Assembly: GCA_002722055.1 (NCBI GenBank)
Contig: PBKD01000014.1
Location: forward strand, 483,230-547,229
DNA: 64,000 nucleotides
DNA from: Rhodospirillaceae bacterium
Lineage (GTDB): Bacteria; Pseudomonadota; Alphaproteobacteria; SHVP01
Direction of reading: 5' to 3'
In this document: in pieces, positions 25,605-43,337 of the stretch
Numbering within the stretch: position 1 is the first letter of the stretch
Layout of the letters: every line of letters begins with the position of its first letter
Position numbers and translations under genes: made by a program
The notes under the pieces: generated by a model
The model's database searches: none
What the model was told of the DNA's origin: nothing
What the model saw: the letters and a program-made list of their open reading frames with translations, nothing else

Positions 25605-25715
25605 TTTTATAAATTGATACTAATTTATTAACTAATCAATCATATTTTTGATTTAATTTTTTTTTTATTTGATTTAAGTGTACAATACAAATCAAATGAA
25701 CGCGGAGAGCCAGAT

Positions 25716-26636
25716 ATGAATGAAAATATCAAAAATTCAAGTAGTGTTATTCCTTTTCTACTTCTTGTTTTAGGGGCTATAATTTACGGAAGTTTTTTTT
25801 CTGCTCAAAGTATAGCTTTAAAACTTGGTGTTTCCCCACTTGGATTAGCTTTTTGGCAAGGATTTCTTGGTGCAATTATTCTTATATTCTTTTCCTTATT
25901 ATTCAGAGAAATGCCTAAATTTTCATGGGACCACGTAAGGTTATATAGCTCAATATCCCTTTTTGCCTTTTCTATTCCCCTTATAGCTGTTAGTTTCGCT
26001 GCTCCTCACGTGCCTCCTGGAATATTGGGCTTAATAGTAACCTTAGTACCATCACTAACCTATTTATTTGCATTCCTTGCAAAGCTTGAGAAATTTAATT
26101 GGCTTTCAACTAGTGGTTTAGCCTTTGGGCTTGCTGGTGTAGTTATTATTGTTTTTTCAACAAACAGTATTGAAGGTTCCTTTTCAGGTACATGGTTTAT
26201 TATTGCATTAATAGCTCCACTGGGATATGCAGCTAGTAATACTGCTGTAGCATTAATTAGACCTGCCGAAGCAACTACCATTCAGTTGTCAACTGGGGTG
26301 TTATGCTTTTCAGTTCCTATCTTACTGATTCCAATGCTTTTTGTTGATGGATTTTATTTTTTTAAAAATACTGATTATCAGGGTTTTTCTGCTGTTTTAT
26401 GGGCAGGAATCACAAATATTGTTATATTCATCACATTATTTGAAGTAATTTACAGACGTGGACCAGTTTTTTTCTCGCAGTTTAATTATATTACTCCAGC
26501 AGCAGCTTTATTATGGGCATATTTAATATTTAGCGAGAATATTCCTTTTATTGTTTGGTTTGCAATCATATTAATGATTATTGGACTATATCTAGCTAAC
26601 AGAGGAACAGCACTAAGCCTTCAAAAAGGGAAATAG
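25716..26636 (+). CDS. EamA/DMT-family transporter
   Basis: Drug/metabolite transporter superfamily permease with ten predicted helices in two EamA repeats. The first repeat begins LGAIIYGSFFSAQSIALKLG and the second ends VFFSQFNYITPAAALLWAYL. The 306-residue length is typical. The ATG follows a GGAGAG ribosome-binding site. One base separates its stop from the next EamA gene, so the two are probably co-transcribed and may form a heteromeric pair. The substrate is unknown; position suggests a link to the catabolic genes nearby. Confidence 0.85.
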   Translation: MNENIKNSSSVIPFLLLVLGAIIYGSFFSAQSIALKLGVSPLGLAFWQGFLGAIILIFFSLLFREMPKFSWDHVRLYSSISLFAFSIPLIAVSFAAPHVPPGILGLIVTLVPSLTYLFAFLAKLEKFNWLSTSGLAFGLAGVVIIVFSTNSIEGSFSGTWFIIALIAPLGYAASNTAVALIRPAEATTIQLSTGVLCFSVPILLIPMLFVDGFYFFKNTDYQGFSAVLWAGITNIVIFITLFEVIYRRGPVFFSQFNYITPAAALLWAYLIFSENIPFIVWFAIILMIIGLYLANRGTALSLQKGK

Positions 26637-26637
26637 A

Positions 26638-27555
26638 ATGAAATCTCTAAGAATAGCCTGGATCTTACTTCTAGGAGGTGCTTCAATTTATGGAGGTATT
26701 TTTTCTGCAAACAAATTAGTTTCAGAAGCTGGAGTTCCATTTATTGCATACACATTTTGGCAAGCGTTAATTGGTGGATTGATGTTATTGGTGGTGGGAA
26801 TTATAACAAATAATCTTCCTAAATTAACATCAGAACATATCATTTCATATATAATAACAGCACTTCTCGGCATTGTGATCCCTATTCTTATCCTTACTTT
26901 CATTGGTAACAGACTACCTGCTAGTATAATTGCACTTGCATATACTCTTATTCCGGGAATGACATTTATATTTGCTGTCATTCTTCGCTTAGATAAACCA
27001 CGCTGGCTTTCGATTGGAGGACTTGTTTTTGGATTGATTGGTGTTTCTGTTTTGTTGCTTCCAAAAGGAACGTTACCAGCAAATAACTCAGTACTTTGGG
27101 TGCTGCTTGCTCTCGTTATGCCTGTGCTTTTTGCTACTAATAATGTTTACATTGCTAAAGTTAAACCTCCAAAAGCTAATGCTTTAATGCTTTCAACAGG
27201 CCTTTTGTTAACTGCTGCAGTTGTAACCTTCCCAATTATGCTGGCAAGCGATGGAATATATCTTTTTTGGCAAACATCCAGCAGCACTACATGGATAATA
27301 ATTTGGACGGGCTGTATAAACATGGTTAGTTTTTTCTGTATGTTTGAAATAATACGCCGTGCGGGAGCAATCTTTTTTGGTCAGTATAACTACGTTATTG
27401 TTATATCAGGAATTGTTTGGTCAATTCTTATTTTTAATGAAATACTTTCTTTTTGGTTTTGGATAGCTCTGGCTTCTATGCTTATAGGACTGTACCTTAG
27501 CAATGCTGGGACAAATCAAAGCATCAGAGAGCTTTCGAAAAAATCATCGCAATAG
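26638..27555 (+). CDS. EamA/DMT-family transporter, second of a pair
   Basis: Second ten-helix EamA permease (305 residues), starting one base after the preceding gene. It opens LLGGASIYGGIFSANKLVSE and ends with the block around FGQYNYVIVISGIVWSILIF and WFWIALASMLIGLYLSNAG. The last ~65 residues closely match the remnant at 42226-42448, showing that a related copy once stood at the other end of the block. It converges on the PuuE-like gene. Confidence 0.85.
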   Translation: MKSLRIAWILLLGGASIYGGIFSANKLVSEAGVPFIAYTFWQALIGGLMLLVVGIITNNLPKLTSEHIISYIITALLGIVIPILILTFIGNRLPASIIALAYTLIPGMTFIFAVILRLDKPRWLSIGGLVFGLIGVSVLLLPKGTLPANNSVLWVLLALVMPVLFATNNVYIAKVKPPKANALMLSTGLLLTAAVVTFPIMLASDGIYLFWQTSSSTTWIIIWTGCINMVSFFCMFEIIRRAGAIFFGQYNYVIVISGIVWSILIFNEILSFWFWIALASMLIGLYLSNAGTNQSIRELSKKSSQ

Positions 27556-27608
27556 TACAATACTTGATATGACCAACCAAAAAATAAAAAATATTACAAA
27601 GGGTTATT

Positions 27609-28526
27609 TCATTTTAATGGAAATTTTGAGTGCCAATGCTTTGCAATATCAATTCTTCGACACAACCATACATTTTCATGTTTTGACAAGTATTCCAAGA
27701 ACTTGATAATTGCCATTGCACGCCCAGGCCTACCGGCCAAACGACAGTGCAGCCCTATAGAAAGCATTTTCGGTGAACCACTTTTACCTTCGGCATACAA
27801 TAAATCAAAACTATCTTTAAGATATGAAAAAAATTGATCACCTGAATTAAAACCCTGTGGAGTAGCAAAGCGCATATCATTTGCATCTAATGTATACGGA
27901 ATAATTAAAAGATCGTCATTGTACCAATAAGGAAGGTCATCAGCATACGAATCTGCAGCATAAAGAAATCCACCTTCAGCCGATACCAAATCAAGAGTAT
28001 TCATTGAGCTTCGACCTGTATACCAACCAAATGGGCGTTCTCCTGTAACTTCTGTGTGAATTTTTATTGCCTGATGCATATGTGAACGTTCTTTATCTAT
28101 TGAAAAATCTTTATAATCAATCCACCTTAAACCATGGGAAGCTATTTCCCATTTGGCCTCTTTCATAGCTGATACAACTTCTTTATTTTTTTCAAGAGCT
28201 GTTGCAACTCCGTAAACCGTAACAGGTACTTTGTTTTCAGAAAATATTCTAAACAATCTCCAAAAACCTGCTCTAGAACCATATTCATAAATCGATTCCA
28301 TATTTGCATGACGCATGCCTTCCCATGGTTCAGCTGTTACAATTTCAGATAGAAAGGCTTCTGAAGCTGAGTCACCATGCAAAATATTGTTTTCACTACC
28401 CTCTTCATAATTTATCACAAACTGGACAGCTACATACGAATTTCCAGGCCATTTAGGATCTGGTGTTTTTTTTCCATAACCTATTAAATCTCTTGGATAA
28501 GTATCGTTTTGTGAACCTTTGTTCAT
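27609..28526 (-). CDS. PuuE-like allantoinase/polysaccharide-deacetylase-fold protein
   Basis: Member of the CE4-fold subfamily that includes cofactor-independent allantoinase PuuE, which opens allantoin to allantoate. The N terminus YPRDLIGYGKKTPDPKWPG, the VQFVINYEEGSE segment and the WEIASHGLRWIDYKDF block (about 130-145) match that subfamily. The ORF extends to a TTG at 28559, but the ATG at 28526 has a GGAG ribosome-binding site, so I start there (305 residues). No other purine-catabolic gene (uricase, allantoate hydrolase) was found nearby, so the substrate may be another cyclic ureide. Confidence 0.8.
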   Translation of the reverse strand: MNKGSQNDTYPRDLIGYGKKTPDPKWPGNSYVAVQFVINYEEGSENNILHGDSASEAFLSEIVTAEPWEGMRHANMESIYEYGSRAGFWRLFRIFSENKVPVTVYGVATALEKNKEVVSAMKEAKWEIASHGLRWIDYKDFSIDKERSHMHQAIKIHTEVTGERPFGWYTGRSSMNTLDLVSAEGGFLYAADSYADDLPYWYNDDLLIIPYTLDANDMRFATPQGFNSGDQFFSYLKDSFDLLYAEGKSGSPKMLSIGLHCRLAGRPGRAMAIIKFLEYLSKHENVWLCRRIDIAKHWHSKFPLK

Positions 28527-28612
28527 TGTTCTTGCTCCATTTACATTGCTATACTGCAAATGAGTTCTTATGATAAATACTGCTAATTAAAACTATATAT
28601 AATTTATCTTTT

Positions 28613-29878
28613 CTAACTATCTAATACAACAGAAGCGATAACTCTAGAAATTATTTCTGTTGATTTAATTAATTCTGTTTCACTAATATTTTCATCCTTA
28701 CCATTTATACCCGCTGCAATAATATCTATATTTCCTGGACCATATCCAACTGTAGGAATTTTATAAGACCCAAACCAACGAGCATCTGTATAAATAGGAA
28801 GCCCTAGAATTGGAATATCAGAATCCAAAACAATAGCAGCTTCTTTTTTTATGATTTTTGCCCATTCTAATTGAGACTTTGTTGCACAAAGAGGTTGAGC
28901 TACGCGCACAATCTCAAAATCAATTTTTACTTCTTGATTATTTTTAAAGGTCTTAATCAATTTTTCTAATTCAGAAATAGCCTTATCTGTACTCTCATCT
29001 GGCAAAGTCCTTCGATCTAACCATATCTCAATATCTCCAGGAGCCATTCCAAAATAATTGCCACCTTGAAACCGGGTAATATTAATTCTAGATGTTAAAT
29101 TTTCATGCGATTTAGATTTAATTCGTCTCAAATTATTATCTAAATCTAATAATTGATTTGAAAAAGCAACAGCAACACGCATAGCCTCCTGATCAGTTTT
29201 TATAAAAGCCTGATGACAGGCTAAACCGCTAATTTTAATTTTAGATAAAACACAACCACACTGCTCTGTGATTACTGCCTTTGTAAAACCTGGGCAAATA
29301 ACTCGCTTTGGACGTAAATTCATTTCTTCTAGTAAATATGCAGGACCATTATCACCTCCTGAACCTTCATCAGCTGTTATGGCCAAAAGAACCGAGCAAT
29401 TTGTTTTGCTTGAAAAAATATTTTTTGTAACTGCTCCAGCGTATGTATAAGCAGCAACATCCGATTTTCCTAAGGCGGCACCACGACCATAAATATTTCC
29501 AAACTCTTGATGAGCCTTATAAGGATCCTTTGTCCACCCATCACCTACTGGCGGGGCATCAATGTGAGAGTTTAACAAAAGATCCGGTTCATTTGTCCTT
29601 GGACCCAGCCAACCAAGAACAATTGGTATTGCTGTTTTATTGGCTTTCTCTATATTTATAAATTCAGTATCTAAACCAATTTTGGTAAATTCTTCTTCTA
29701 CTCGCTTAGCTCCAAGCATGCAGTCTCCTGGTGGGTTTTCAGTTTTAATTTTTAGTAAATCTGAAAAAAACCCGACTAAATTATTTTTTTCTTCGAAAAC
29801 TGATTGAGCCAAATTAGAATTTCCATATTTTTTTTTATTTTTTTGTTTTTCAAACTTAACAGACATTAATTTTTCCAT
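28613..29878 (-). CDS. M20-family metallo-amidohydrolase (ArgE/DapE/ACY1 type)
   Basis: Zinc-dependent amidohydrolase/deacylase. Metal-site motifs are LLLNSHIDAPP (about 105-115), GRGAALGKSDVAAY (about 133-146) and TADEGSGGDNG (about 169-179, catalytic Glu), followed by the dimerisation domain (about 215-325). It is 421 residues long. A second ATG at 29866 is an equally good start. It resembles ArgE/DapE deacylases more than the AllC/HyuC carbamoyl-amidase branch. It is divergent from the N-carbamoylsarcosine-amidase-like gene across an 86-bp gap, which likely holds both promoters. The substrate is unknown, probably an N-acyl or N-carbamoyl amino acid. Confidence 0.82.
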   Translation of the reverse strand: MEKLMSVKFEKQKNKKKYGNSNLAQSVFEEKNNLVGFFSDLLKIKTENPPGDCMLGAKRVEEEFTKIGLDTEFINIEKANKTAIPIVLGWLGPRTNEPDLLLNSHIDAPPVGDGWTKDPYKAHQEFGNIYGRGAALGKSDVAAYTYAGAVTKNIFSSKTNCSVLLAITADEGSGGDNGPAYLLEEMNLRPKRVICPGFTKAVITEQCGCVLSKIKISGLACHQAFIKTDQEAMRVAVAFSNQLLDLDNNLRRIKSKSHENLTSRINITRFQGGNYFGMAPGDIEIWLDRRTLPDESTDKAISELEKLIKTFKNNQEVKIDFEIVRVAQPLCATKSQLEWAKIIKKEAAIVLDSDIPILGLPIYTDARWFGSYKIPTVGYGPGNIDIIAAGINGKDENISETELIKSTEIISRVIASVVLDS

Positions 29879-29964
29879 GTATTATAAAAAAACAATTTGT
29901 TTATTGTATCGTAAAAATTATATAATCCAAGTTAAACAATTTTTTTATTTTTTGGGGGGAAATT

Positions 29965-30660
29965 ATGGCACTAGATGATAAAGTGAGAAATGCTCTTGAT
30001 ACTATATTTGCTGCAGATTCAGAGCTTTATGCTGATAGAGGTTGGAATACACGCAACGGTTTTGGGAAAAATCCGGTATTACTAAATATAGATCTTGCAA
30101 ACGCATGGACACGCCCAGGTTACAAGTTTTCTTGTAATGATATGGATGAATTAATTATCCCAGGTGTACAAAGTCTATTAAAAGCATGTCGCTCCAAAAA
30201 AATTCCCATAATATATACTACCACAGGATTTTGTAGTGCTTTTGATATGGGGGCGTTCCCAGTAAAAGCGCCATCCTGGAATGATCTTATTCTCGGCACT
30301 CCTGCTTGTGAGATTGATGAACGCGTTGCGCCTATATCTGGCACTGATACTTTAATTGTAAAAAAAAGACCCAGCGCATTTGCAGGAACTCATTTAGGAG
30401 GTATTTTGCGTGCTGCTAAAATAGATACTTTAATATGCACAGGAGTAACGCTTGCTGGATGTGTTCGGCACACCGTAGAAGATGCTTTGGGAGAAGGATT
30501 CCGAACTGTTGTAGTGCGCGAATGTGTTGGAGATAGAGCGCCTGCAGCTGTTGAGTGGAATTTATTTGATATTGATATGAAATACGCAGATGTAGAACCC
30601 CTTTCAAAAGTTCTTGACTACATTGAAAAGTTTGAACCTTCTAGCTCAAGTATAACTTAA
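29965..30660 (+). CDS. isochorismatase-fold amidohydrolase, N-carbamoylsarcosine amidase-like
   Basis: Cysteine hydrolase. Members of this branch convert N-carbamoylsarcosine to sarcosine, CO2 and ammonia. The triad is visible as Asp43 (LNIDLANAW), Lys133/134 (IVKKRPSAF) and Cys166 (TLAGCVRHTVEDA). The 231-residue length and N terminus fit N-carbamoylsarcosine amidases. Biuret, ureidoacrylate or maleamate hydrolase activities are alternatives. It has a GGGGGG ribosome-binding site, and hyuA starts 2 bp after its stop. It therefore forms an operon with ATP-dependent hydantoinase subunits, the arrangement expected for N-methylhydantoin degradation. Confidence 0.8.
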   Translation: MALDDKVRNALDTIFAADSELYADRGWNTRNGFGKNPVLLNIDLANAWTRPGYKFSCNDMDELIIPGVQSLLKACRSKKIPIIYTTTGFCSAFDMGAFPVKAPSWNDLILGTPACEIDERVAPISGTDTLIVKKRPSAFAGTHLGGILRAAKIDTLICTGVTLAGCVRHTVEDALGEGFRTVVVRECVGDRAPAAVEWNLFDIDMKYADVEPLSKVLDYIEKFEPSSSSIT

Positions 30661-30662
30661 GA

Positions 30663-32723
30663 ATGAAATATAGACTTGGAGTAGACGTCGGAGGGACGTT
30701 TACAGATTTAATTTTATTCAATGAAAATGACTCCACTAATGGTAAGGTATTCTCTGTTAAGCTTCCATCAACACCTGAAGATCCATCAATAGGTGTTATA
30801 GATGGAATAAGAAGAATATGTAAAAAAGCAAATGTTCAAGTTAACGATAGCATTCACATTATGCACGGCACTACAGTTGCTACTAACGCTATTCTAACGG
30901 GCAATGGAGCACGAGTTGGTCTAGTTACATCCACAGGTTATAAATATGTTCTCCAAATAGCACGTTCCTTCATCCCGGGTGGACTTGGTGCATGGGTAAT
31001 TTTTAATAAATCACCTCCATTAGCGCCTCTGAGCCTGACAGTCGAAGCAGATGAACGAATTGATGATAGGGGAAATATTCTTCAACCTCTTGACGAAAAT
31101 AAGCTTCGAATTTCTCTAAAAAATTTAAATAAAAAAAATATAGAAGCTCTAACAATTTCATTTATAAATGCATACGCTAATGACGTTCACGAAAAAATTG
31201 CTGAGCGAATTGCTAAAGAAGAACTTCCTGATATTCCTATATCAATATCATCTTATGTGAACCCCGAAATACAAGAATATGAAAGAACAATTACAACTGT
31301 TTGTAATTCTTTTGTGAGACCAATAGTATCTAAATATGTACGTAACCTTAACAGCAAAATTAAAACATTCTCAAAAGATGTCAAATTACACATACTGCGT
31401 TCAGACGGAGGCTTAACTTCTCCTGCTGGAGCAGAAATGATACCAGTAAACCTATTAATGAGTGGACCCGCTGGTGGTGTTGCTGGTGCTATATGGAATG
31501 CCAAAAAAACAAAATATAAAAACTTTTTGACTTTTGATATGGGAGGAACCTCAACAGATGTTTGTGTAGTGAAAGATTTAAATCCTCAAACTCGACGTGA
31601 AACAACTGTTGGAGATCTTACGGTAAGAGCATCATCTCTGGATGTCCGTACTGTTGGAGCTGGAGGTGGATCAATAGCTCACGTTCCAGACCTGACTGGA
31701 GCCTTAAGAGTTGGACCGCAAAGTGCTGGTGCCTTACCCGGTCCCGCAGGCTACGGCAAGGGTGGCGAAAAACCAACTGTTACAGATGCCAATATAGTGC
31801 TCGGCTATTTGCCCGAAACAGCCTATTTAGGTGGGGATATGAAAATTTATAAATCAAAAGCTATTCCGGCTATTCAATCAATTGCTGAAAGTCTTAAATT
31901 TAATATAGAGCGTGCAGCTGAAGGTATCTACAATATTGTTAATGAAAGGATGATAGGGGCCCTTCGTTTAATTTCAATTCAACAAGGATATGACCCTCGA
32001 GATTTTGCTCTAGTAGCTTTTGGAGGTGCAGGTCCAATTCACGCTAATGCTTTAGCCAATATCCTTGGATCATGGCCAGTAATAGTACCACCTGCCCCAG
32101 GTGTTCTCTGTGCTTATGGTGATGCAACAACATATGTAAAAGACGAAGCTTCTCGTACAATCATGAAACGCTTTTCTGAAACAACTAATAATGAGATTTT
32201 AGAAATTTTTGACCAACTAATTGAAAAAGCATCAGCAGCATTAGACCTAGAGGACATTCCACGTAACAATCAAACCATTACCCTTGAAGCGGACATTCGT
32301 TATACAGGTCAAGTGCTGCATAGAACTGTAACTATAAATAAAGATGTTTTTATTCGAGAAGGATTAAATGGCCTCGGTAAAACCTTCGATGAACTCCATA
32401 AACGTCTCTATACTTTTGCCTTAGATACTGAACGTGAAATTATTAACTTGAGAGCTATTGTTGAAGATAAAAGTCTCATATTAGATGCTCCCAAAATTAA
32501 GCCTGGCAACTCTGATTCAGAGCATGCGAAAGTAGGGGAACAAAAGACATTTTTTAATGGTGGTTATTGTATTTCAAAAATCTATGACAGATCCAAATTA
32601 TTATCTGGAAATAAGATACCAGGACCAGCTATACTGATACAACCTGATACTACCACTTTGATTATACCTGAACATATAGGCTATATAGATGAAATTGGAA
32701 ATATTATAATTCAACCTATGTAA
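30663..32723 (+). CDS. hyuA: hydantoinase/oxoprolinase subunit A (HyuA), copy 1
   Basis: ATP-binding subunit of the ATP-dependent hydantoinase/5-oxoprolinase family, which cleaves cyclic amides. The 686-residue protein has the N-terminal ASKHA phosphate loop GVDVGGTFTDLIL (about 6-18), then HGTTVATNAIL (about 69-79), and the central hydantoinase_A domain with LMSGPAGGVAGA and FDMGGTSTDVCV. Acetone or acetophenone carboxylase-type and caprolactamase subunits share this architecture. It is co-transcribed with the amidase upstream and hyuB downstream (17-bp gap). Substrate assignment to N-methylhydantoin is contextual. Confidence 0.88.
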   Translation: MKYRLGVDVGGTFTDLILFNENDSTNGKVFSVKLPSTPEDPSIGVIDGIRRICKKANVQVNDSIHIMHGTTVATNAILTGNGARVGLVTSTGYKYVLQIARSFIPGGLGAWVIFNKSPPLAPLSLTVEADERIDDRGNILQPLDENKLRISLKNLNKKNIEALTISFINAYANDVHEKIAERIAKEELPDIPISISSYVNPEIQEYERTITTVCNSFVRPIVSKYVRNLNSKIKTFSKDVKLHILRSDGGLTSPAGAEMIPVNLLMSGPAGGVAGAIWNAKKTKYKNFLTFDMGGTSTDVCVVKDLNPQTRRETTVGDLTVRASSLDVRTVGAGGGSIAHVPDLTGALRVGPQSAGALPGPAGYGKGGEKPTVTDANIVLGYLPETAYLGGDMKIYKSKAIPAIQSIAESLKFNIERAAEGIYNIVNERMIGALRLISIQQGYDPRDFALVAFGGAGPIHANALANILGSWPVIVPPAPGVLCAYGDATTYVKDEASRTIMKRFSETTNNEILEIFDQLIEKASAALDLEDIPRNNQTITLEADIRYTGQVLHRTVTINKDVFIREGLNGLGKTFDELHKRLYTFALDTEREIINLRAIVEDKSLILDAPKIKPGNSDSEHAKVGEQKTFFNGGYCISKIYDRSKLLSGNKIPGPAILIQPDTTTLIIPEHIGYIDEIGNIIIQPM

Positions 32724-32740
32724 AGAAATAGATAAAATTA

Positions 32741-34618
32741 ATGACTGCAAATTTAATAGAGAGTAATAGTAGTGATTTTCAAGAAGTCGATGTTGACCCT
32801 GTAGCCTTAGATATAATTGAAAATGCATTACGAAATGCACGAGAAGAAATGGATGCAGTGCTTTTTCGCACAGCGATGTCTCCAGGTATTCGTGAACAAC
32901 ATGATGAATTTCCAATGATTGCCAACAGAGAAGGCAAAATGATTGTTGGTCAATTTGGTGCATGTATCCATGTTTTTTTGGATTCATATTCTGGAGATAT
33001 TCGTGAAGGAGATGTTTTTCTAACAAATGACCCTTATGCATGTAATGGCGCCATTAGCCACTCTCCAGACTGGCTTGTTATAATGCCTATTTACAAAGAC
33101 GGCCGAGTAATTGGCTGGGCTGCAATGTTTGGACATATGACTGACACTGGCGGCCGAAGTCCTGGCAGCATGCCAACTGACGCTCAGCAAATTTTCGAAG
33201 AAGGAATTCTTATTCCACCTACAAAAATTTACGACGCTGGCAAACGTAATGAAGAAACTTTAAATTTGATTTTGCGAAATTGTCGAATGCCCGATTGGAA
33301 CAAAGCAGATCTTGATGCGTTAATTGCTGGTTGTCAGCTTGCGGGCAAGCGCGTTAGAGAGATATCAGAGAGATTTGGTGACAATGTATATTTTTCTTCA
33401 TTAAAAAAATTGCTTGACCGAACACATGACGCAATGCGTCAAATTATTAACACTACTATTCCTGAAAAAAAACAGTATTTTGAAGACTATCTTGATGACG
33501 ATGGAATCGGGATGGGCCCTTACAAAATTGCATGCTCAATGTGGCGAGAAGATGGAAAATTAATTCTTGATTTTGAAGGGACTGACCCGCAATCATCTAG
33601 CTCAGTAAATTTCTATTGCAATGAAGAAATGACAAAAATGCATTCTGGTGTCTTTTTGATCATGCTTGCCGATCCACAAATCCTATTCAATGATGGTTTT
33701 TATGATTTAATGGAAGTTAGAATTCCTAAAGGCACTCTTTTAAACCCTAAATGGCCGGCAGCTCTTTCTTGTAGAACCCATGGTCTAGCAAGATCTATGG
33801 ACGTTTTAGCGGGTCTATTTGGTCAGGGAAATCCTGACTATTTATGCGCAGCAGGATTTTCTGCAAGTCCACACTTTCTTTACTCAGGATATGATAAACA
33901 TGGTAAATGGTTTCAGCTTTTTCATATTACCTTCGGAGGAGTTGCTGCAGCACCATCTGGAGACGGTGCTGATGGGCATGGTATGTGGCCTGATTTCATG
34001 AATGTACCAAGCGAACACCTGGAATCAATTCTTCCTTTACGAATTGAAACACATGCTATTATTCCTGATTCTGGAGGTCCTGGTTACCATCGCGGTGGTA
34101 ATGGAGTTCATACGGCATACCGAATTCTCAATAAAGGCCAGATTTCAATTCATGACGATAGATGGTTAACCCACCCCTGGGGTGTTAACGGCGGTCTACC
34201 TGCAGCACGTAGTTCTAAATTTCTTGAACGCAGCAATGGTGAAACCAAAACTCTCGGATCAAAATGTGATCGTATAGAAGTTCTGCCTGGGGATATTGTG
34301 CACTATCGAACATGGGGAGGCGGAGGCTGGGGAGATCCTTTAACTCGACCCGTTGAAAAAGTTTTATTCGATGTTGAAGCAGGTCTTGTTACCCCTAAGG
34401 GCGCAACACGTTATGGTGTTGTCATTGGTCAGGATAATAAAGTGAATATAGATGAAACTAAAACCTTGCGTAATAGTATGAAAAAGGAAAGAGGAACGAT
34501 CGAATTATTCAATCGCGGCGGCACAGTTGAAGAACTATTAGCCCGGTGTGAATTAGAAACAGGTTTGCCTGCTCCCAATCCTCCAACTTTTCCTCATTGG
34601 GTCCAAAAGAAAAATTAA
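32741..34618 (+). CDS. hyuB: hydantoinase/oxoprolinase subunit B (HyuB), copy 1
   Basis: Catalytic partner of HyuA. The 625-residue protein shows hydantoinase_B features: VDPVALDIIENALRNAREEM near the start, TNDPYACNGAISHSPD (about 96-111, metal-binding region), HMTDTGGRSPGSMP, and the C-terminal GGPGYHRGGNG and GGGGWGDP loops. It is slightly longer than copy 2 (584). It ends the three-gene operon with the amidase and hyuA copy 1 and converges on the racemase-fold gene. The 158-bp gap after it shows no clear GC-rich terminator. Confidence 0.88.
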   Translation: MTANLIESNSSDFQEVDVDPVALDIIENALRNAREEMDAVLFRTAMSPGIREQHDEFPMIANREGKMIVGQFGACIHVFLDSYSGDIREGDVFLTNDPYACNGAISHSPDWLVIMPIYKDGRVIGWAAMFGHMTDTGGRSPGSMPTDAQQIFEEGILIPPTKIYDAGKRNEETLNLILRNCRMPDWNKADLDALIAGCQLAGKRVREISERFGDNVYFSSLKKLLDRTHDAMRQIINTTIPEKKQYFEDYLDDDGIGMGPYKIACSMWREDGKLILDFEGTDPQSSSSVNFYCNEEMTKMHSGVFLIMLADPQILFNDGFYDLMEVRIPKGTLLNPKWPAALSCRTHGLARSMDVLAGLFGQGNPDYLCAAGFSASPHFLYSGYDKHGKWFQLFHITFGGVAAAPSGDGADGHGMWPDFMNVPSEHLESILPLRIETHAIIPDSGGPGYHRGGNGVHTAYRILNKGQISIHDDRWLTHPWGVNGGLPAARSSKFLERSNGETKTLGSKCDRIEVLPGDIVHYRTWGGGGWGDPLTRPVEKVLFDVEAGLVTPKGATRYGVVIGQDNKVNIDETKTLRNSMKKERGTIELFNRGGTVEELLARCELETGLPAPNPPTFPHWVQKKN

Positions 34619-34776
34619 ATTTTGAAAACTCCATCTCTCTAAATAATTCTTTGTAAAATTTTTAAACAGTAATTAATTTAAAAAGATACTTTTAAGTTTT
34701 TACATCAAATTTCTTCTATAGTTCATTTTTAAAACCAAGTTTAATCAGTAAATGATTATACATGTTAAGTTTTAGT

Positions 34777-35535
34777 TTAGATTTTACTAGCAGCCTCCAT
34801 CATAGTCTCTATAATTTTTTGTTTTGGTTTATGTGGTTTAGGATAAGCTTTACGACTATGTGTTAACCCTAAACCAAGCAGACATTCAGCTAACTTATAG
34901 GTTAAAGGGCCTGGATTAATTATTGGTACTGGTAAGTTTTTAGAAAGAAATTCATGTGCTTGATGCATCGTGGTTGAACCAAGTAAAATAACTTCTGCAC
35001 CATCATCTTCTATACATTTCATCGAAGCTTCTAAAAGTTTAGGAAAAACTTCCTCTTCTTTTCCTCCTAGTAAATTCTCAACATCTGGCATAACATTAAT
35101 TGATCGAATTGACACAAGTCTATCTGCAACTCCATATTCTTGAGCTGCTTTTTTGTAGCCTTGAATCCATCCGTCCCATTGAGTAACGACTGACATTGTA
35201 TTCCCTAATACTAAGGCTGTCATAAATGAAGCCCTAGCAGGTCCAATGACAGGAATATCAAGTACTGAGCGCATAGCATTCATTCCAGAGTCGCTCATTG
35301 TATCTACGCACACAGCATCAAAGCCTTCATTCTGTGCATTAAGACCAACTTCAAATAATGCTAAGTCAGCAATAGCTGAATCATGATAACTATCTAAAAG
35401 GTCTGGACCAGCCCTAACCCCTCTAAATTCAAATTCAATATCTGGACCAAACGATACGGTGTCGAGCTGAGCTTGTCGATTACCCAGACCTTTTTCGTCA
35501 AAAGCAAAAGGTACTATAACAAGAATTTTAGCCAT
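34777..35535 (-). CDS. Asp/Glu/hydantoin racemase-superfamily protein lacking both catalytic cysteines
   Basis: 252-residue protein of the HyuE/Asp-Glu racemase fold. The two positions where hydantoin racemases carry cysteines read DAVCVDTMSDSG (Thr79; expected A-C-F-G-D-P-G) and VILLGSTTMHQ (Ser187; expected G-C-A-G-M). Cys76 lies three positions away and is unlikely to substitute. Two-base racemisation is therefore improbable. It may be a lyase, isomerase or hydrolase within the superfamily. It has a GGGAG ribosome-binding site and is probably transcribed after hyuB copy 2, from which it lies 82 bp downstream. Confidence 0.78.
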   Translation of the reverse strand: MAKILVIVPFAFDEKGLGNRQAQLDTVSFGPDIEFEFRGVRAGPDLLDSYHDSAIADLALFEVGLNAQNEGFDAVCVDTMSDSGMNAMRSVLDIPVIGPARASFMTALVLGNTMSVVTQWDGWIQGYKKAAQEYGVADRLVSIRSINVMPDVENLLGGKEEEVFPKLLEASMKCIEDDGAEVILLGSTTMHQAHEFLSKNLPVPIINPGPLTYKLAECLLGLGLTHSRKAYPKPHKPKQKIIETMMEAASKI

Positions 35536-35617
35536 TATTTTACTCCCTATTTAGCAAATTTATATCTAATGAATATAAACACAATACCACTTCTAAATTT
35601 AACTTCCCGGCATTGTT

Positions 35618-37372
35618 TTATTTTTTATTACGTTGATCTCTACAAGATTCTGTGGCAGCAATATCAATTTCATTATTCTCATCTATCACTACACCGTATA
35701 CTTCAAATGCATGATCACTAGTATAGTACCCATCAATCACATCCGCTCTTACTTGATCGGTGGGACGTTCAAATGGGTCACCGTAACCTCCTCCTCCTGG
35801 GGTATACACAGCAATACAATCACCTGCTTTGATCCTTTTCGCAGATACTTTAGCAGGCCAACTTTCAATGGAATCAGATTTATCAATATTCCATTTTTCA
35901 AGTTTGCCTACAGTACCTTGTTCTCCACCCAAAAACCCCCATGGTATATCTTCGTGTCTATCTGACTCATGCACAACAAACCCATCTGTTAAAAAACGTT
36001 GAATTTTAACAATCCCGAGACCTCCTCTATATCTACCTGCCCCAGGAAAAATATCATCTCTTAGTTCATATCGATCACAGATTAAAGGCAAATGCATGCC
36101 AAGGTCCTCAATCGGTTGATTGCGTGTGTTACGCATTAATTCATCAATTGAATCAGGTCCATCCGAATATGGGCGACCTCCATAAGAAGATTCGTTTATT
36201 TCTATCAATATCCAATATTGACCATCTGGCTTTAAACCAGAGTAAGAAAATGCTGACAATGTCGCTCCACAACCTGCCGTAACCTTGTTAGGTATTACTG
36301 GAGCGAGTGCTTTACTTATAAGATCAACTAAACGCTGACACTGAGAGAACCTTGACTGACAAGGAGCCGGAAATGTTGGATTAAATATGGATCCTTCGGG
36401 AGAAAAAACTTCGATAGGACGAAAAGATCCTTCATTTTGTGGAATGTATTCAGTATTTGTATAAGTATCAAGCAGAAGAGCTCTAAAAGCAAAGTAACAA
36501 GTAACTTTTGTCGATCCCTCAAAAGGAACATTATATGCTGTAGGTACTTGTTGCGATGACCCAGTAGTATCAACTTTTGCTGAATCACCCTTTATTGTGA
36601 TTGTCACCTTGAGTGGTAATTTTTTTTCTCTATTTACTCCATCATCATCTAAAAATCCTTCCGCAATATATTCTCCATCAGGTATTTCATTTATTCTACG
36701 TCTTAGCATTCCTTCTGAATAATCCATAAGTTCAGAACAAGCAGAAGTAAGTGTTTTTTTTCCATATGTTTGAAAAAGTTCATGAAAACGTCTTGCACCA
36801 AGTTGAACAGAAGCAACTTGAGCCTCTATATCACCTAGCACATCTCTAGGCACTCTAGTATTTGAACCAATATACTGCCAAAGAGCATTGTTTAGTTTGC
36901 CACCCTCGTAAAGTTTCAGACCTGTAAAAAGCATGCCTTCTGCAAACACATCAGGAATATCGATTACTATTCCTGGAGTTGCAGCTCCTAAATCAACATG
37001 ATGAGCTGTATTAGCAGAAAAACCAACTAATTCATTTTCAAAAAATACAGGAGCAATACAACAAATGTCTGGAACATGACTTGCACCGTGATAAGGATGA
37101 TTATGCAAAACAATATCTCCAGGAAGCCATTCTCCTTGCATAGTTTTTTCTACACCCCGCATATATCCAGGAATAGACCCTATATGCATAGGAGTGGAAT
37201 CTGATTCACAAAGAGTATTAAAATTTTTATCAAAAAGCCCTGCGCCAAGATCTTCTGATTCTCTGACTATTGATGAATAAGACATTCGATAAAGCACATG
37301 TCCCATTTCTTTTGCAATTGTGTGCAATGCTCCACCAATTACTTGTAAAGTTATCGGATCGATATTAGTCAT
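35618..37372 (-). CDS. hyuB: hydantoinase/oxoprolinase subunit B (HyuB), copy 2
   Basis: 584-residue hydantoinase_B protein. It begins MTNIDPITLQVIGGALHTIA and shows the metal-region variant LHNHPYHGASHVPD (about 92-105), FSANTAHHVDLG, the FPGAGRYRGGLG loop and the terminal PGGGGYGDPFERP. A strong GGGAGG ribosome-binding site precedes the ATG. Unusually it is divergent from its likely partner hyuA copy 2 across 259 bp, instead of sharing an operon with it. The racemase-fold gene follows on the same strand. The differing NDPY/NHPY motif suggests that the two HyuAB systems act on different substrates. Confidence 0.87.
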   Translation of the reverse strand: MTNIDPITLQVIGGALHTIAKEMGHVLYRMSYSSIVRESEDLGAGLFDKNFNTLCESDSTPMHIGSIPGYMRGVEKTMQGEWLPGDIVLHNHPYHGASHVPDICCIAPVFFENELVGFSANTAHHVDLGAATPGIVIDIPDVFAEGMLFTGLKLYEGGKLNNALWQYIGSNTRVPRDVLGDIEAQVASVQLGARRFHELFQTYGKKTLTSACSELMDYSEGMLRRRINEIPDGEYIAEGFLDDDGVNREKKLPLKVTITIKGDSAKVDTTGSSQQVPTAYNVPFEGSTKVTCYFAFRALLLDTYTNTEYIPQNEGSFRPIEVFSPEGSIFNPTFPAPCQSRFSQCQRLVDLISKALAPVIPNKVTAGCGATLSAFSYSGLKPDGQYWILIEINESSYGGRPYSDGPDSIDELMRNTRNQPIEDLGMHLPLICDRYELRDDIFPGAGRYRGGLGIVKIQRFLTDGFVVHESDRHEDIPWGFLGGEQGTVGKLEKWNIDKSDSIESWPAKVSAKRIKAGDCIAVYTPGGGGYGDPFERPTDQVRADVIDGYYTSDHAFEVYGVVIDENNEIDIAATESCRDQRNKK

Positions 37373-37631
37373 TCCAATACCTCCCTTTTTTTTTAAACGT
37401 ATTTTACCCTAAATTTGGAGCAGAATACCTATTAAACATTAATGTAAGCCATAATAATACCATAATTAAATATTTTTAGGTATTTTATAATTATTAGATA
37501 ATCTATAATTTGAATTTTTGTTTAAAACTATAGTTAAATTTTAAAATATTTCTAAATTTAAACATTTAATATTTAAAATTTTTCTAAATGATTTATTTTA
37601 GATACATAATACAAATTGAGAGGAAATTTCT
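37373..37631. promoter_or_regulatory. divergent promoter region of the hyuB/hyuA copy 2 pair
   Basis: 259 bp of very AT-rich DNA between divergent genes. The hexamer AATACC or its complement occurs four times in 109 bp: 37376-37381, 37424-37429, 37456-37461 and (as GGTATT) 37479-37484. The last two form a 6-bp inverted repeat with a 17-nt spacer, a plausible operator. The first overlaps the hyuB leader. Confidence 0.4.
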
Positions 37632-39722
37632 TTGAGCAAAATAGGCGTTGATGTTGGAGGAACTTTTACAGACCTTATTCTGGAAAAAGAAAATTCCGAG
37701 GCTGAAAAAAATAAGGTTTTTGTTCACAAAGTTCCAAGCACCCCTAAAGATCAGTCAATAGGGGTTATACGTGGCGTTATCGAGATATGCGAAATGGCCG
37801 GAATAGACCTCAATGAAGTCAAAACTATTGTCCATGGAACTACAATAGCAACCAATGCAATTATTGAATATGATGGTGCAGAAGTTGGAATGCTCACTAC
37901 AAAGGGTTTTCGTGATATTCTTCATATGGCTCGACACAAGCGTCCTCACAATTTTTCAATGCAATTTGATGTACCCTGGCAATCAAAACCTTTGGTTAAG
38001 CGTCGAAATCGAATACCAATAACAGAGAGAATATTGCCACCTGACGGAAAAATTGAAACTGAATTAAATGAACAAGATGTACGAGAGGCCGCAAAGTTAT
38101 TAAAAAAGCAAGAAGTCGAAGCAGTTATTATTTGTTTTATTTTTTCTTTTTTAAATAATAAACATGAAATTCGTGCAAAAGAAATTTTGAAGGAAATTAT
38201 CCCAGATATTTATATAAGTTGTTCATACGAGGTTGCTGATGTTATCCGAGAATATGAACGATTTTCTACAGCTGCTATGAACGCTTTTGTTGGTCCTCGC
38301 ACTTCTTTTTACTTACGCAACTTAGAAAACTCATTACGTTCAAAAGGTGCTAATGCAGAAATACGTGTCATGCAATCCAATGGAGGGGTTACAACCATTG
38401 AAGGTGGTAGTCAAAAACCAGTGACGATTCTTATGTCGGGGCCAGCAGGCGGAGTAATTGGAGGAAAATGGGCTGGAGATTTATCTGGGGTTAAAAATTT
38501 GATAACTGTCGACATTGGAGGTACATCTGCAGATATAAGCGTTGTCCCTAATGGTAATGTAAGAATTATGAATCCTAGAGACACTAAAGTCGCTGGATAC
38601 CCTATTCTTGCTCCAATGATTGATTTAGCAACAATCGGCGCTGGAGGAGGCTCTATTGCTTATGTTGACGAAGGCGGTGCATTCCGTGTTGGCCCTCGAT
38701 CTGCTGGAGCTGAACCAGGTCCTGCCTGCTATGGAAAGGGTGGAACAGAACCAACAGTAACTGATGCACAAGTTGTACTCGGTCGTCTTGATCCCAACCA
38801 CTTTTTGGCTGGCGGCATAGAAATTAAACCTGAACTTGCTATTAATGCCATAGAAAATAATTTATGTTCAAAACTAAATTTAAGCGTAAAAGAGGCTGCA
38901 TTAGGAATAATTCGGGTAATCAATTCTAATATGTCACTCGAAATCCGAGCTAATTCAGTTGCTCAAGGCATAGATCCAAGACAATACTCTCTAGTAGCCT
39001 TTGGAGGAGCAGGGCCATTACATGGTGTTGATTTAGCAAAATCTGTATCTGCAAAAGAAATAATAATTCCACCTGCTCCGGGAATAAATGCTGCAACCGG
39101 TCTACTTGCTACAGATATGCAGTACGAATTTACCAGATCAGTTTTAATTACAATAAGTGAATCAGAGCAATCTGACCTTGATAAACTTAATGCTGAACTC
39201 AATGATCTCATGAATATCGCTCAAAAAGCACTAGAAGTTGATGGAGTCAAATCAATAGGTCAAAAATTTACACGTATAGCTGAATGCAGATATCAAGGAC
39301 AAGGATTTGAATTGCGGGCTGAATTTCCTGATGGCCCCATAACATTAAATAATAAGGATATTTTAATAAAAAATTTTCACGATTCACACATGCGTGATTA
39401 CGATCATGCCTTTGAAGAACAAAATGTTGAAATTATAACCTTGCGCGTGATTGCTCTTGCCACCACTGAAAAACTTAATTGGTCTAAACTCGAAATTGGT
39501 GACGGTAAAAACCCTAAAGATGCAATAATGTATGAAAGCCCTACTACTTTTGAAGATGGAACTGTATTAGACACACCACGTTATGATCGGAACAAACTCA
39601 AATTTGGGCAGACTATTTCCGGGGCCGCAATAATTACGCAGCAAGATTCAACAACTTTTATTCCACCAGACTACATCGCTACAATTTCAGAATATGGCAA
39701 TTTAATTATTAGAGAAAGCTAG
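37632..39722 (+). CDS. hyuA: hydantoinase/oxoprolinase subunit A (HyuA), copy 2
   Basis: 696-residue ATP-binding subunit with GVDVGGTFTDLILE at the N terminus, HGTTIATNAII (about 67-77), LMSGPAGGVIGG and VDIGGTSADISV. The terminal region ends with GAAIITQQDSTTFIPPDY, typical of the family. The start is a TTG at 37632 preceded by GAGAGGAAA. It is divergent from hyuB copy 2. The region with GGGSIAYVDEGGAFRVGPRSAG is shared with copy 1 (SIAHVPDLTGALRVGPQSAG), indicating paralogy, but the two differ throughout, so they are not a recent duplication. Confidence 0.88.
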   Translation: MSKIGVDVGGTFTDLILEKENSEAEKNKVFVHKVPSTPKDQSIGVIRGVIEICEMAGIDLNEVKTIVHGTTIATNAIIEYDGAEVGMLTTKGFRDILHMARHKRPHNFSMQFDVPWQSKPLVKRRNRIPITERILPPDGKIETELNEQDVREAAKLLKKQEVEAVIICFIFSFLNNKHEIRAKEILKEIIPDIYISCSYEVADVIREYERFSTAAMNAFVGPRTSFYLRNLENSLRSKGANAEIRVMQSNGGVTTIEGGSQKPVTILMSGPAGGVIGGKWAGDLSGVKNLITVDIGGTSADISVVPNGNVRIMNPRDTKVAGYPILAPMIDLATIGAGGGSIAYVDEGGAFRVGPRSAGAEPGPACYGKGGTEPTVTDAQVVLGRLDPNHFLAGGIEIKPELAINAIENNLCSKLNLSVKEAALGIIRVINSNMSLEIRANSVAQGIDPRQYSLVAFGGAGPLHGVDLAKSVSAKEIIIPPAPGINAATGLLATDMQYEFTRSVLITISESEQSDLDKLNAELNDLMNIAQKALEVDGVKSIGQKFTRIAECRYQGQGFELRAEFPDGPITLNNKDILIKNFHDSHMRDYDHAFEEQNVEIITLRVIALATTEKLNWSKLEIGDGKNPKDAIMYESPTTFEDGTVLDTPRYDRNKLKFGQTISGAAIITQQDSTTFIPPDYIATISEYGNLIIRES

Positions 39723-39753
39723 CAGTTAACAAATATATATATAGCTTTTAATT

Positions 39754-40950
39754 CTATGATATAGAACCAATGCCGTACGCTCCACTTAAGAGCAAATCTT
39801 CTTTAAACCTACTATGACTATATGGAGAAATATCTATATCTTGTTCAATACCAACAGCTTTTTGCGCCAACATTTTACCAACGGCAGGTGCCATTTTAAA
39901 ACCATGCCCAGAAAAACCATAAGCTAGAATTAGACCTTCCCAGCCATCCGGCTCTCCTAACACAGGATTCCAATCTGGTGTTATATCATAAGCACCAACC
40001 CAATCATTTGTTACTCTTGCATTTTCAAATGAAGGCATGCGATTGGAAATTTGCCGTCCTTGATTTATGATAAAATCATCAACTATTTCTTCATCCATTA
40101 AATCAGGATGCTTAATTGGATCTCCATGATCCCCTGTGCCAACAAGAACAACCCCTCCACTCGAAGGTCTAAAGTACATTTTATTTTTTGTTGAAAGATC
40201 TTTAATTATTGGGAGCTTAAAATCATATTCAGATTCTGACTTTAAAGTAATAACTGAATGTCTAGAAATATCTAAATATGTGTCAATATTTAAAGGATCC
40301 GTTAAATCCTTAATCCATGGACCCGTTGATAAAATTATTAAACCAGCGTGTATCACTCCACTTTCAGTATCAACGCCAATAACTTTATTTCCTTTTGTTA
40401 AAAGTTTTTTAACTCCTTGATTAGTAATTAATTCTACACCTTGTCTTTTTGCTGCATTTGCAAAACCTGTTGTTGTAAGATATGGGTCCGCATAACCCGA
40501 AAAAGGTTCATAACCAACTGCGCCAATATCATTAAGATTTAAAAGGGGATGAAACTCAAGGGCTTCTTTATGTGATATTTGCATTGTTTCAGCACCAATT
40601 TCTTTTTGCATTTTGAGGTTCTCAACAAGTTTATCGCTTGTTTCACCTTCAGGAGCTAAAATTAAATATCCAGATTGAACAAATCCACTTTCAAGACTAG
40701 TGTCACCTAAATATTTCTTGAAATCTCTAAAAATTTCAATGCTTTTAACTGTAAGCGCCGTATTACTAGGGACAGAATAGTGTGAACGTATAATTGCACA
40801 TGAACGAGCAGTTCCTCCAGAACAAATTTGACTTCGCTCAATAAGGCCCACTTTAGAATTACTAAGCTCAGCTAAATGATATGCAGTAGAAGAACCTACT
40901 ACACCACCGCCAACTATCAAAATATCAAATGAATCTGTCATTTTATTCAT
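39754..40950 (-). CDS. FAD-dependent amine oxidoreductase (DAO family, sarcosine oxidase/dehydrogenase-like)
   Basis: Flavoprotein of the D-amino-acid oxidase/SoxB superfamily. The N-terminal dinucleotide fold reads LIVGGGVVGSSTAYHLAEL (about 10-28) with the ERSQICSGGTARS segment next. The C-terminal FSGHGFKMAPAVGK is the usual FAD-contact loop. The 398-residue length fits single-subunit or beta-subunit sarcosine/dimethylglycine-type enzymes. The ATG at 40950 is used; a TTG precedes it. Its place in the island makes oxidation of sarcosine, released from N-carbamoylsarcosine, an attractive but inferred role. Confidence 0.82.
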   Translation of the reverse strand: MNKMTDSFDILIVGGGVVGSSTAYHLAELSNSKVGLIERSQICSGGTARSCAIIRSHYSVPSNTALTVKSIEIFRDFKKYLGDTSLESGFVQSGYLILAPEGETSDKLVENLKMQKEIGAETMQISHKEALEFHPLLNLNDIGAVGYEPFSGYADPYLTTTGFANAAKRQGVELITNQGVKKLLTKGNKVIGVDTESGVIHAGLIILSTGPWIKDLTDPLNIDTYLDISRHSVITLKSESEYDFKLPIIKDLSTKNKMYFRPSSGGVVLVGTGDHGDPIKHPDLMDEEIVDDFIINQGRQISNRMPSFENARVTNDWVGAYDITPDWNPVLGEPDGWEGLILAYGFSGHGFKMAPAVGKMLAQKAVGIEQDIDISPYSHSRFKEDLLLSGAYGIGSIS

Positions 40951-41121
40951 CAAAATAATTAATATAAATTTTACTATAGTACAAATCGTAATTGAAAGGT
41001 ATGCTAAATTAAACTAAAAGTACATAAATATATATATTAGAATAATAAAATATTTATTTTATTGCCCAATTATAATGTTTATTTACAAAATATTAATTTA
41101 ACAGAAAAATTAAGAAAATTC

Positions 41122-42180
41122 TTGACGCATAAAATTTACAAAATACAAACTAGAGGTTCTAGTCGTGAACGTGGAAAACAACATGGCCAACTTCTAGCTG
41201 ACCCTATAAATAAGGCAATCCAGTTCTACCAACAAATGTTCCAACAACATTTGAAAATTGGGATTAAAGAAATCAGACAACGGTCAAAAAAATATTTTGA
41301 CCCTCTATCAGAATCATTTCCTGACGTTTTTAAAGAAATGGAGGGAATTGCAGAAGGCTCAAAACAACAATTGCATGATATACTAATGCTCTCTGCTCGC
41401 TGGGAAATCACTTTTGAACATTTAAAAGTTGGAGAATGCTCTAATCTGTTTGTTGGCTCTGATCGATCAAAAAATGGAGAAACTTTTCTTGGAATGAATT
41501 GGGAATGGCGACCAGAAGTAATGGATTTTCGAGCTGTTATTACAGCTTATTGCGATGATCAACCAGATAGTATAGTTGTTACTGAATGCGGACAACCAGG
41601 TAAGTTCGGCATAAATGAATTTGGCATTGCCGTTATTGAGACTGGCCTTGCCTGCAGTAAATCTCGTTCAATTGGTAAGGTTCCTTTTGCACCATTAATT
41701 TGCCAAGCTCTTCGATGCAAAAGTTTGGAAAGTGCACGAAATACAATTCACCAATACCCTCCAGAAGCTACAATAAATTTTATTCTAGCAGATGAACACA
41801 GTAACGGTTGGTGTATAGAAGCAACTCCAACTGGCCTATATGAGCACAATCTTCAGCCGTCAGATTTGTATTGGCATACTAATCATTCTAGATTAACAAA
41901 GGAGCGATGTGAATTTGATGATAGTCTTCTAAGAGGAGCACGTTGGGAAGAACTTTTGAAAAATATTAAGCTCGCGAATCGTAAACAAGTTGAAAGCTGG
42001 CTTGCTGATACTAAAAACGGAAGTAATGCTATATGTAAAGCTCCAGATATTACTCTTGCGAATAAAGCTACATGGCTTCAAACATTGTGTTCAGCTGTAA
42101 TAAATACAAAATTAAAAGAAATTTGGGTTAGTGACGGCCCTTCTTTTAAACATCCTTATGAACGAATTTATTTTGAATAA
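41122..42180 (+). CDS. C45-family Ntn hydrolase (acyl-CoA:6-APA acyltransferase/carcinine hydrolase-like)
   Basis: Autocatalytically processed Ntn-fold amidohydrolase. The N terminus KIYKIQTRGSSRERGKQHGQ and the putative processing/nucleophile site in VGECSNLFVG (Cys about residue 107) match peptidase C45. The later GMNWEWRPE and LADEHSNGWCIEATP segments are also typical. The ORF opens with a TTG at 41062, but the TTG at 41122 puts the start at the usual place before the family's first strand. It is divergent from the flavoprotein gene. The substrate is unknown, likely an N-acyl amide. Confidence 0.75.
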   Translation: MTHKIYKIQTRGSSRERGKQHGQLLADPINKAIQFYQQMFQQHLKIGIKEIRQRSKKYFDPLSESFPDVFKEMEGIAEGSKQQLHDILMLSARWEITFEHLKVGECSNLFVGSDRSKNGETFLGMNWEWRPEVMDFRAVITAYCDDQPDSIVVTECGQPGKFGINEFGIAVIETGLACSKSRSIGKVPFAPLICQALRCKSLESARNTIHQYPPEATINFILADEHSNGWCIEATPTGLYEHNLQPSDLYWHTNHSRLTKERCEFDDSLLRGARWEELLKNIKLANRKQVESWLADTKNGSNAICKAPDITLANKATWLQTLCSAVINTKLKEIWVSDGPSFKHPYERIYFE

Positions 42181-42225
42181 ACATACTTTGCAAGATTGCT
42201 CTAAATTGATAATAATTTATAATTA

Positions 42226-42448
42226 TCTGAAATGTTTTACTGTTTTAATTATATTTGAAATAATCAGAATTGCAGGACATGTTTTTTTTGGCCAATACAA
42301 TTATGTCATCGTTATTGCTGGGTTTTTATGGTATCTTATATTTGTTAATGAGAATTTAACCTCTTGGTTTTGGATAGCATTTCTTATAATGATTGTAAGC
42401 CTCTATCTAGGAAATGCCGGATCTAAACAAAATTTAGAAAATGAATAA
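42226..42448 (+). pseudogene. remnant of an EamA/DMT transporter (C-terminal fragment)
   Basis: About 70 codons matching the C-terminal end of the EamA gene at 26638-27555: FEIIRIAGHVFFGQYNYVIV here against FEIIRRAGAIFFGQYNYVIV there, then WFWIAFLIMIVSLYLGNAG against WFWIALASMLIGLYLSNAG. No start codon or N-terminal helices precede it. The upstream sequence is the end of the C45 gene in another frame. The natural stop is retained and overlaps the next EamA start by 8 bp, so the fragment was once the first gene of an EamA pair. It marks a deletion or rearrangement junction near 42180-42230. Confidence 0.75.
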
Positions 42449-43337
42449 AAAAAATTTTTGTTATATTCTTCTTTTAATTAGCGGCACTGGTTTTGGTAGT
42501 GTTTTTATTGCAAACAAATATGTTGCCATCTCAGGTTTACCTACAACAGCTTACCTTTTTTGGTTCACATTTGTAGGGAGCGCTTTAACTTTAATTCCCG
42601 TATTGCTCTCAAAAAAAAAATATAAATTTAGTTTCTTATCTATAGTTCATTTCCCCGCAGCTGCCTCTTTAGGAATGTTAGTGCCTTTCGGTGTCGTTGC
42701 ATCTATTGCAGACAAACTTCCAGCAGGAGTTTTAACATTATCATTTTCACTCGGTCCTGCTTTTACATTTCTTTTATCATTTTTTTTTAGAATGGAAAGA
42801 TTCAGATATATTAAAATATTTGGTATAATATTAGGTTTCATTGGTGTTTGTTTTATCGTATTTCCTGAAACTAGCCTACCAAACCCTGAATCAGCTCCTT
42901 GGATAATATTTGCGTTACTTGCTCCGATTGGCGCTGCTTCAAATAATATAATTGTAGCAAAATTAAAACCACCTAATGTTAGTCCAATTTTTCTTACTTT
43001 TTACTTATTATTTTCTGCTACAATAATTATGTTTGTTATCATGGTAATTAATCATGGTTTTATATTTTTTTGGGATTACGGAAACCTTGCTATTTTAGGA
43101 GTTTGCTGGGCTACAATTGTTCAAGTTATTGGTTTCATTATAATGTATATTATTATCCCGAGGGTAGGACCAGTATTTTTTTCTCAGATAGCTTATGTAA
43201 TGATATTTAGTGGTTTTATATGGGCATACATATTTTTTAAAGAAACACCATCTTTATGGATTATTTTTGCAATAATTTTTATGGTTTTTGGGTTAATATT
43301 TACAAATTCAAGTAGGGAAAAATTTTTTAATTTTTAG
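42441..43337 (+). CDS. EamA/DMT-family transporter at the right end of the island
   Basis: 298-residue ten-helix permease, intact, with LISGTGFGSVFIANKYVAIS at the start and VFFSQIAYVMIFSGFIWAYI near the end. It overlaps the EamA remnant by 8 bp and the 3' end of mutS by 11 bp (convergent). It belongs to the same subfamily as the pair at 25716-27555 and stands in the same orientation. The substrate is unknown. Confidence 0.83.
   Translation: MNKKNFCYILLLISGTGFGSVFIANKYVAISGLPTTAYLFWFTFVGSALTLIPVLLSKKKYKFSFLSIVHFPAAASLGMLVPFGVVASIADKLPAGVLTLSFSLGPAFTFLLSFFFRMERFRYIKIFGIILGFIGVCFIVFPETSLPNPESAPWIIFALLAPIGAASNNIIVAKLKPPNVSPIFLTFYLLFSATIIMFVIMVINHGFIFFWDYGNLAILGVCWATIVQVIGFIIMYIIIPRVGPVFFSQIAYVMIFSGFIWAYIFFKETPSLWIIFAIIFMVFGLIFTNSSREKFFNF

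Follow-up and report, generated by a model that had tools for sequence, protein, structure and literature searches.

Does a HyuAB pair beside an isochorismatase-fold amidase mark a bacterium as a creatinine user? Studies of marine metagenomes have deduced creatinine use from this annotation (e.g., PMC6742649, PMC7848895), and the question is raised by a locus of a Rhodospirillaceae bacterium (assembly GCA_002722055.1), within a stretch of 64,000 nucleotides (contig PBKD01000014.1, positions 483,230 to 547,229) that we call the window and to which all unlabelled coordinates refer. A first-pass annotation of positions 29965–40950 had proposed a creatinine-type route, in which HyuAB opens N-methylhydantoin, an N-carbamoylsarcosine amidase (NCSA) releases sarcosine, and a DAO-family flavoenzyme oxidizes it. 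We found that the locus most likely combines known enzyme types in a new way. On the basis of sequence comparison, we give an even chance to it being an approximately 18-kb cyclic-ureide nitrogen-scavenging island, with N-methylhydantoin or hydantoin among the substrates, that passed recently from one species to another within a genus of marine Alphaproteobacteria. The gene identities, clades, active-site residues and synteny reported below are direct observations, as are the shared block and, at the stated sensitivity, the absences.

The host genome (2.16 Mb, 99% complete) is that of a marine alphaproteobacterium of the same genus as MarineAlpha2_Bin1, placed in the GTDB order GCA-2701885 and with members all from marine sites with normal oxygenation (PMC8879329). 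It was searched family by family and in selected stretches. The amidase, HyuA, HyuB and DAO-family genes are all intact open reading frames (ORFs) where the first-pass annotation had placed them. The amidase, HyuA1 and HyuB1 genes share one direction and are separated by gaps of 2 and 17 bp, and thus form a co-directional operon, as had been proposed. Also within this interval are a second full HyuB/HyuA pair and a racemase-fold protein.

The amidase (29965–30660, + strand; PF00857, 93 bits) has as its best PDB match and closest solved relative the NCSA 1NBA (46% identity, E 5e-58), and in the tree it falls inside the 1NBA clade with support 100/98. Its residues D43, K133, C166 and R191 align with D51, K144, C177 and R202 of 1NBA, and all are kept; we take the first three of the 1NBA residues to be the catalytic Asp, Lys and Cys, and R202 to be the substrate-binding Arg. 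Furthermore, the signature N A T G F R W (1NBA positions 54, 55, 57, 60, 63, 146 and 209), a purely descriptive one with positions chosen after the sequences had been seen, is shared by the window subclade, 1NBA and sox-linked proteins, and by none of the seven other paralogues checked in the same genome. In approximately unbiased (AU) tests, grouping the amidase with the amidases linked to HyuA1/HyuB1 was rejected (p about 1e-46), and grouping it with actinobacterial proteins alone was not (p 0.32). Biuret hydrolase, RutB and maleamate-type identities were ruled out by scores and tree. The PDB entry 26st carries the name NCSA but falls outside the 1NBA clade, and we did not rely on it as a functional anchor. 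The assignment made by the first-pass annotation thus stands: the amidase is of the NCSA clade, and hydrolysis of N-carbamoylsarcosine is its predicted activity.

The N-methylhydantoinase expected by the first-pass annotation is present, in the second pair rather than in the operon. As a reference we used a Pseudarthrobacter locus (L101), in which a fused protein of 1288 residues is near-identical to the crystallized N-methylhydantoinase 7HK5 (2660 bits); the locus is a good reference because this gene adjoins one near-identical to 1NBA. HyuA2 (37632–39722, + strand) scored 683 bits against 7HK5 and 377 against caprolactamase, and HyuB2 (35618–37372, − strand) 585 and 214 bits, respectively. 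Both are 49–50% identical to 7HK5 and fall in its clade (99/98 for HyuA2; Shimodaira–Hasegawa-like approximate likelihood ratio test [SH-aLRT] 99 for HyuB2). Placing HyuA2 with HyuA1 was disfavored by the AU test (p-AU 0.036, for a group named after the first tree had been seen). The ATP motifs of HyuA2 (D7, D294 and GxxPGP) and the metal ligands of HyuB2 (D41, H99, D102 and H124) are kept. HyuA2/HyuB2 is therefore a pair of the N-methylhydantoinase clade, with a predicted ATP-dependent opening of N-methylhydantoin. As a side observation, the metal-ligand position occupied by Gln in the actinobacterial N-methylhydantoinase is His in caprolactamase, as in HyuB2.

The two enzyme types are also found together elsewhere. 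Indeed, among 69 independently fetched NCSA-clade loci (L059–L127), 40 have HyuA, HyuB or both at a distance of up to about 10 kb, so the association exceeds chance. Some of the ORF families that clustering recovered near NCSA were spurious antisense ORFs from high-GC loci, and families were kept only when a family search or tblastn agreed. Plasmid homologues of HyuA2/HyuB2 adjoin NCSA in Paracoccus, Azoarcus, Mesorhizobium and Ancylobacter, the last with a creatininase about 9 kb away. In Mesorhizobium sp. B2-1-8, a single plasmid cluster reads soxBDAG-glyA-L-serine ammonia-lyase-LysR-NCSA-HyuA2-HyuB2-NCS1 transporter. Its HyuA2/HyuB2 are 59–61% identical to those of the window, its amidase is of the NCSA clade, and both genomes have a sarcosine oxidase; here, however, the sox genes are on a different contig, next to an NCSA of their own.

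This other contig (C15) carries a second NCSA followed by SoxB, SoxD-like, SoxA and SoxG-like genes. SoxB exceeds its cut-off (682 bits); SoxA (1067 vs 1164) and SoxG (63 vs 144) are under theirs but in place, and the SoxD-like gene is an ORF of 86 aa recognized by eye. The C15 NCSA groups in the tree with proteins linked to sox and N-methylhydantoinase, and a third HyuAB pair, of the HyuA2/HyuB2 clade, lies on contig C3. It is thus plausible that the genome encodes a route from N-methylhydantoin through sarcosine to glycine, partly outside the window.

For the island itself, we infer the substrates, the reaction direction, the coupling to sox and the uptake. HyuA2/HyuB2 would use ATP to convert N-methylhydantoin or hydantoin into an N-carbamoyl amino acid, from which the NCSA-clade cysteine amidase would free NH3 and CO2, leaving sarcosine or glycine; this conversion is plausible, and the sarcosine would then be oxidized by soxBDAG from the other contig. 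HyuA1/HyuB1 could open a second cyclic ureide or amide, with a product perhaps cut by the same amidase or by the M20 enzyme nearby. PuuE, the racemase-fold protein, the FAD enzyme and transporter-like proteins could broaden the range of C-N compounds, and the entry compound would not be creatinine.

Several observations weigh against this interpretation. HyuB2 and HyuA2 are divergently transcribed, with 259 bp between them, and lie outside the NCSA operon, whereas in the Arthrobacter-type system the two subunits are fused. Where HyuB2 has the predicted metal ligand His124, the actinobacterial N-methylhydantoinase (L101:5680-7410) has Gln, so the active sites differ. The genome search also turned up no NCS1 hydantoin-type transporter, another difference from the Mesorhizobium cluster. 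Moreover, the window NCSA forms its own subclade and the sox/N-methylhydantoinase-linked orthologue of this genome is the C15 copy; for these reasons, the substrate of the window copy may be new.

The proposed mobility rests on a comparison with a second species of the genus (genome G001). Mapping mismatches between the window and two G001 contigs (C110 and C182) delimited a putative exchangeable island at 25099–43186 (no strand assigned), between glnD and mutS, with the outermost flanking mismatches at 25,098 and 43,187. There are no mismatches over 25,099–27,673, a mosaic with more than 100 mismatches over 27,674–30,024, and four mismatches over 30,025–43,186. Beyond these limits, identity drops to about 77–90% per 500 bases; across six other loci, totalling about 82 kb, it is 74–91% per kb, and G001 is otherwise about 82–85% identical to this genome. 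In the coding regions, dS declines from 0.14 for the M20 gene to zero for HyuA1, RacE, HyuB2 and HyuA2. The breakpoints are sharp, one inside glnD and one just before mutS, the latter (43,186) within the third EamA-like gene. In G001, the block is divided over two contigs with one junction on each. In its simplest reading, this pattern would come from a recent homologous exchange that took in the whole island via glnD and the gene before mutS. A chimeric assembly could also give such a block, both genomes being draft assemblies and at least one of them a metagenome bin. The mosaic stretch speaks against a simple chimera.

What, then, does the operon pair do? HyuA1 (30663–32723, + strand; PF01968, 298 bits), the subunit that binds ATP in an ATP-dependent cyclic amidase, and HyuB1 (32741–34618, + strand; PF02538, 484 bits), the hydrolase subunit that binds metal, score 422 and 226 bits against 7HK5, with 37% and 34% identity to its L101 stand-in. 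They form a separate clade (100/99 for HyuA1) with a paralogue of the same genome (L040), Acidiphilium and haloarchaea, and an N-methylhydantoinase identity for this pair is rejected by the trees; on this point, the first-pass annotation had taken the wrong pair. HyuA1 keeps D8, D292 and GxxPGP, and HyuB1 the metal ligands D55, H107, D110 and H132. Both window pairs thus have the ATP motifs and the Asp-His-Asp-His metal site of caprolactamase CapAB (PDB 6YRA), whose ligands are essential by mutation (PMC8453981), and they share its fold. Nevertheless, the window proteins are only 30–35% identical to it and lack the vicinal Cys pair, and a caprolactamase identity was discarded, with 518 and 551 bits for HyuA1/HyuA2 and 214 and 267 for HyuB1/HyuB2, about half the NCBIfam equivalog cut-off of 1000 bits or less. 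HyuB is encoded eight times in the 2.16-Mb genome, which also has no fewer than nine NCSA-like amidases.

The relatives of HyuA1/HyuB1 are mostly accompanied by a different isochorismatase-fold amidase type, as in haloarchaea, Acidiphilium and many others. In a haloarchaeon and Acidiphilium (L138 and L140), HyuA1/HyuB1-type genes and an amidase stand beside CoA-transferase and citramalate-synthase or 3-hydroxy-3-methylglutaryl-CoA (HMG-CoA)-lyase genes, hinting at a separate pathway for this type. One could thus propose that HyuA1/HyuB1 and the amidase act on another cyclic compound (an imide, a lactam or a ureide), in line with the HyuA1/HyuB1 clade at large. We regard this as unlikely, although it is the alternative that survives best: the partner carries the NCSA signature in the window and in two further loci (L060 and L070), where an NCSA-clade amidase precedes HyuA1/HyuB1, and the AU test rejects its grouping with the usual partners. 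A tentative proposal, possible but short of an even chance, is instead that the NCSA-clade amidase was re-paired with HyuA1/HyuB1 into a new two-enzyme pathway for a marine cyclic ureide, spreading between marine species within the 18-kb exchangeable island.

The M20 amidohydrolase/peptidase (28613–29878, − strand; PF01546) and the hydantoin/allantoin-racemase-fold protein (34777–35535, − strand; PF01177) recall the HyuABC cluster of Pseudomonas NS671 (described in PMC8453981), in which HyuAB, an M20 N-carbamoylase and a racemase turn 5-substituted hydantoins into amino acids. The three gene types stand together here, and the order M20-NCSA-HyuA1-HyuB1 recurs in Mesorhizobium 61-13 (L070), with M20 divergent from NCSA. 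However, aligned to 3qvj and 5lfd, the racemase-fold protein has Thr79 and Ser187 in place of the two catalytic cysteines and is unlikely to be an active hydantoin racemase. The same replacement occurs in both tandem copies of this genome (L046:13594-15140), which suggests a conserved non-racemase subfamily; the Ser is found also in L094. The window M20 is of another subfamily, tentatively ArgE/DapE (154 bits, under cut-off). A single TIGR01879 (hydantase/HyuC-type) gene was found in the genome, and it lies outside the window (C14:104.8-106.0 kb); the amidase that accompanies HyuAB here belongs to the NCSA clade. A 5-substituted-hydantoin cluster is, therefore, quite improbable. The TIGR01879 gene itself stands beside another HyuAB (C14:104.8-110 kb).

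Far less survives of the creatinine route, in which creatinine deaminase, HyuAB, NCSA and sarcosine oxidase act in turn. It would be served by the NCSA, the N-methylhydantoinase-clade pair and the sox genes, and 7 of the 10 genomes from this bacterial family contain a gene of the creatininase family. Yet the operon pair is of the wrong clade, and the DAO-family FAD amine oxidase/dehydrogenase (39754–40953, − strand; PF01266, 207 bits; best PDB match 1y56_B) did not hold up as the proposed sarcosine oxidase: it scored 118 bits against a cut-off of 480 and 113 against 529 for the monomeric or heterotetrameric models, and no specific NCBIfam model reached its cut-off. Neither this genome nor the other two of the genus yielded a creatininase (PF02633). 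No CodA-like creatinine deaminase was found genome-wide among the PF07969/PF01979 matches, CDA-fold deaminases (PF00383) not having been searched; this again differs from the Arthrobacter-type system, as does the presence of an extra, distinct HyuAB in the NCSA operon. The amidohydrolase-superfamily genes found are three, namely two dihydroorotases and one other protein, and the search works, since E. coli and other control genomes gave matches. Creatinine use by this genome is thus unsupported, given the lack of creatininase and CodA-like deaminase, and the route can be considered largely refuted and very improbable.

Finally, allantoin or purine-ureide use, with PuuE opening allantoin and other amidohydrolases completing ureide breakdown, is hardly credible: the PuuE-type allantoinase (27609–28559, − strand; polysaccharide-deacetylase fold) exceeds its cut-off (TIGR03212, 519 bits vs 425), the racemase-fold protein resembles allantoin racemase, and in one locus (L061) NCSA has PuuE-like genes at a distance of about 5 kb, but the genome search found neither a 2-oxo-4-hydroxy-4-carboxy-5-ureidoimidazoline (OHCU) decarboxylase nor a convincing urease (a 23-bit match inside an amidohydrolase ORF of 571 aa), and the neighboring M20 enzyme is over no allantoate-hydrolase cut-off shown.

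The remaining genes near the operon are a C45-family autoproteolytic acyltransferase/hydrolase (41062–42180, + strand; NF040521, 179 bits vs cut-off 85) and three ORFs for EamA-type transporter-like membrane proteins, named by eye and all on the + strand: the first (25716–26636) is 100% identical to its G001 protein, and the second (26638–27555) and third (42441–43337) are 34% and 32% identical to the first.

The annotation "HyuAB + isochorismatase" alone therefore captures different enzyme clades and, by itself, is no proof of a creatinine pathway; the island gives defined enzyme sets for assay. If the cyclic-ureide interpretation is true, hydantoins and related ureides, which are poorly charted components of dissolved organic nitrogen, would serve open-ocean bacteria as a nitrogen source, and this capacity would move between species as one unit.

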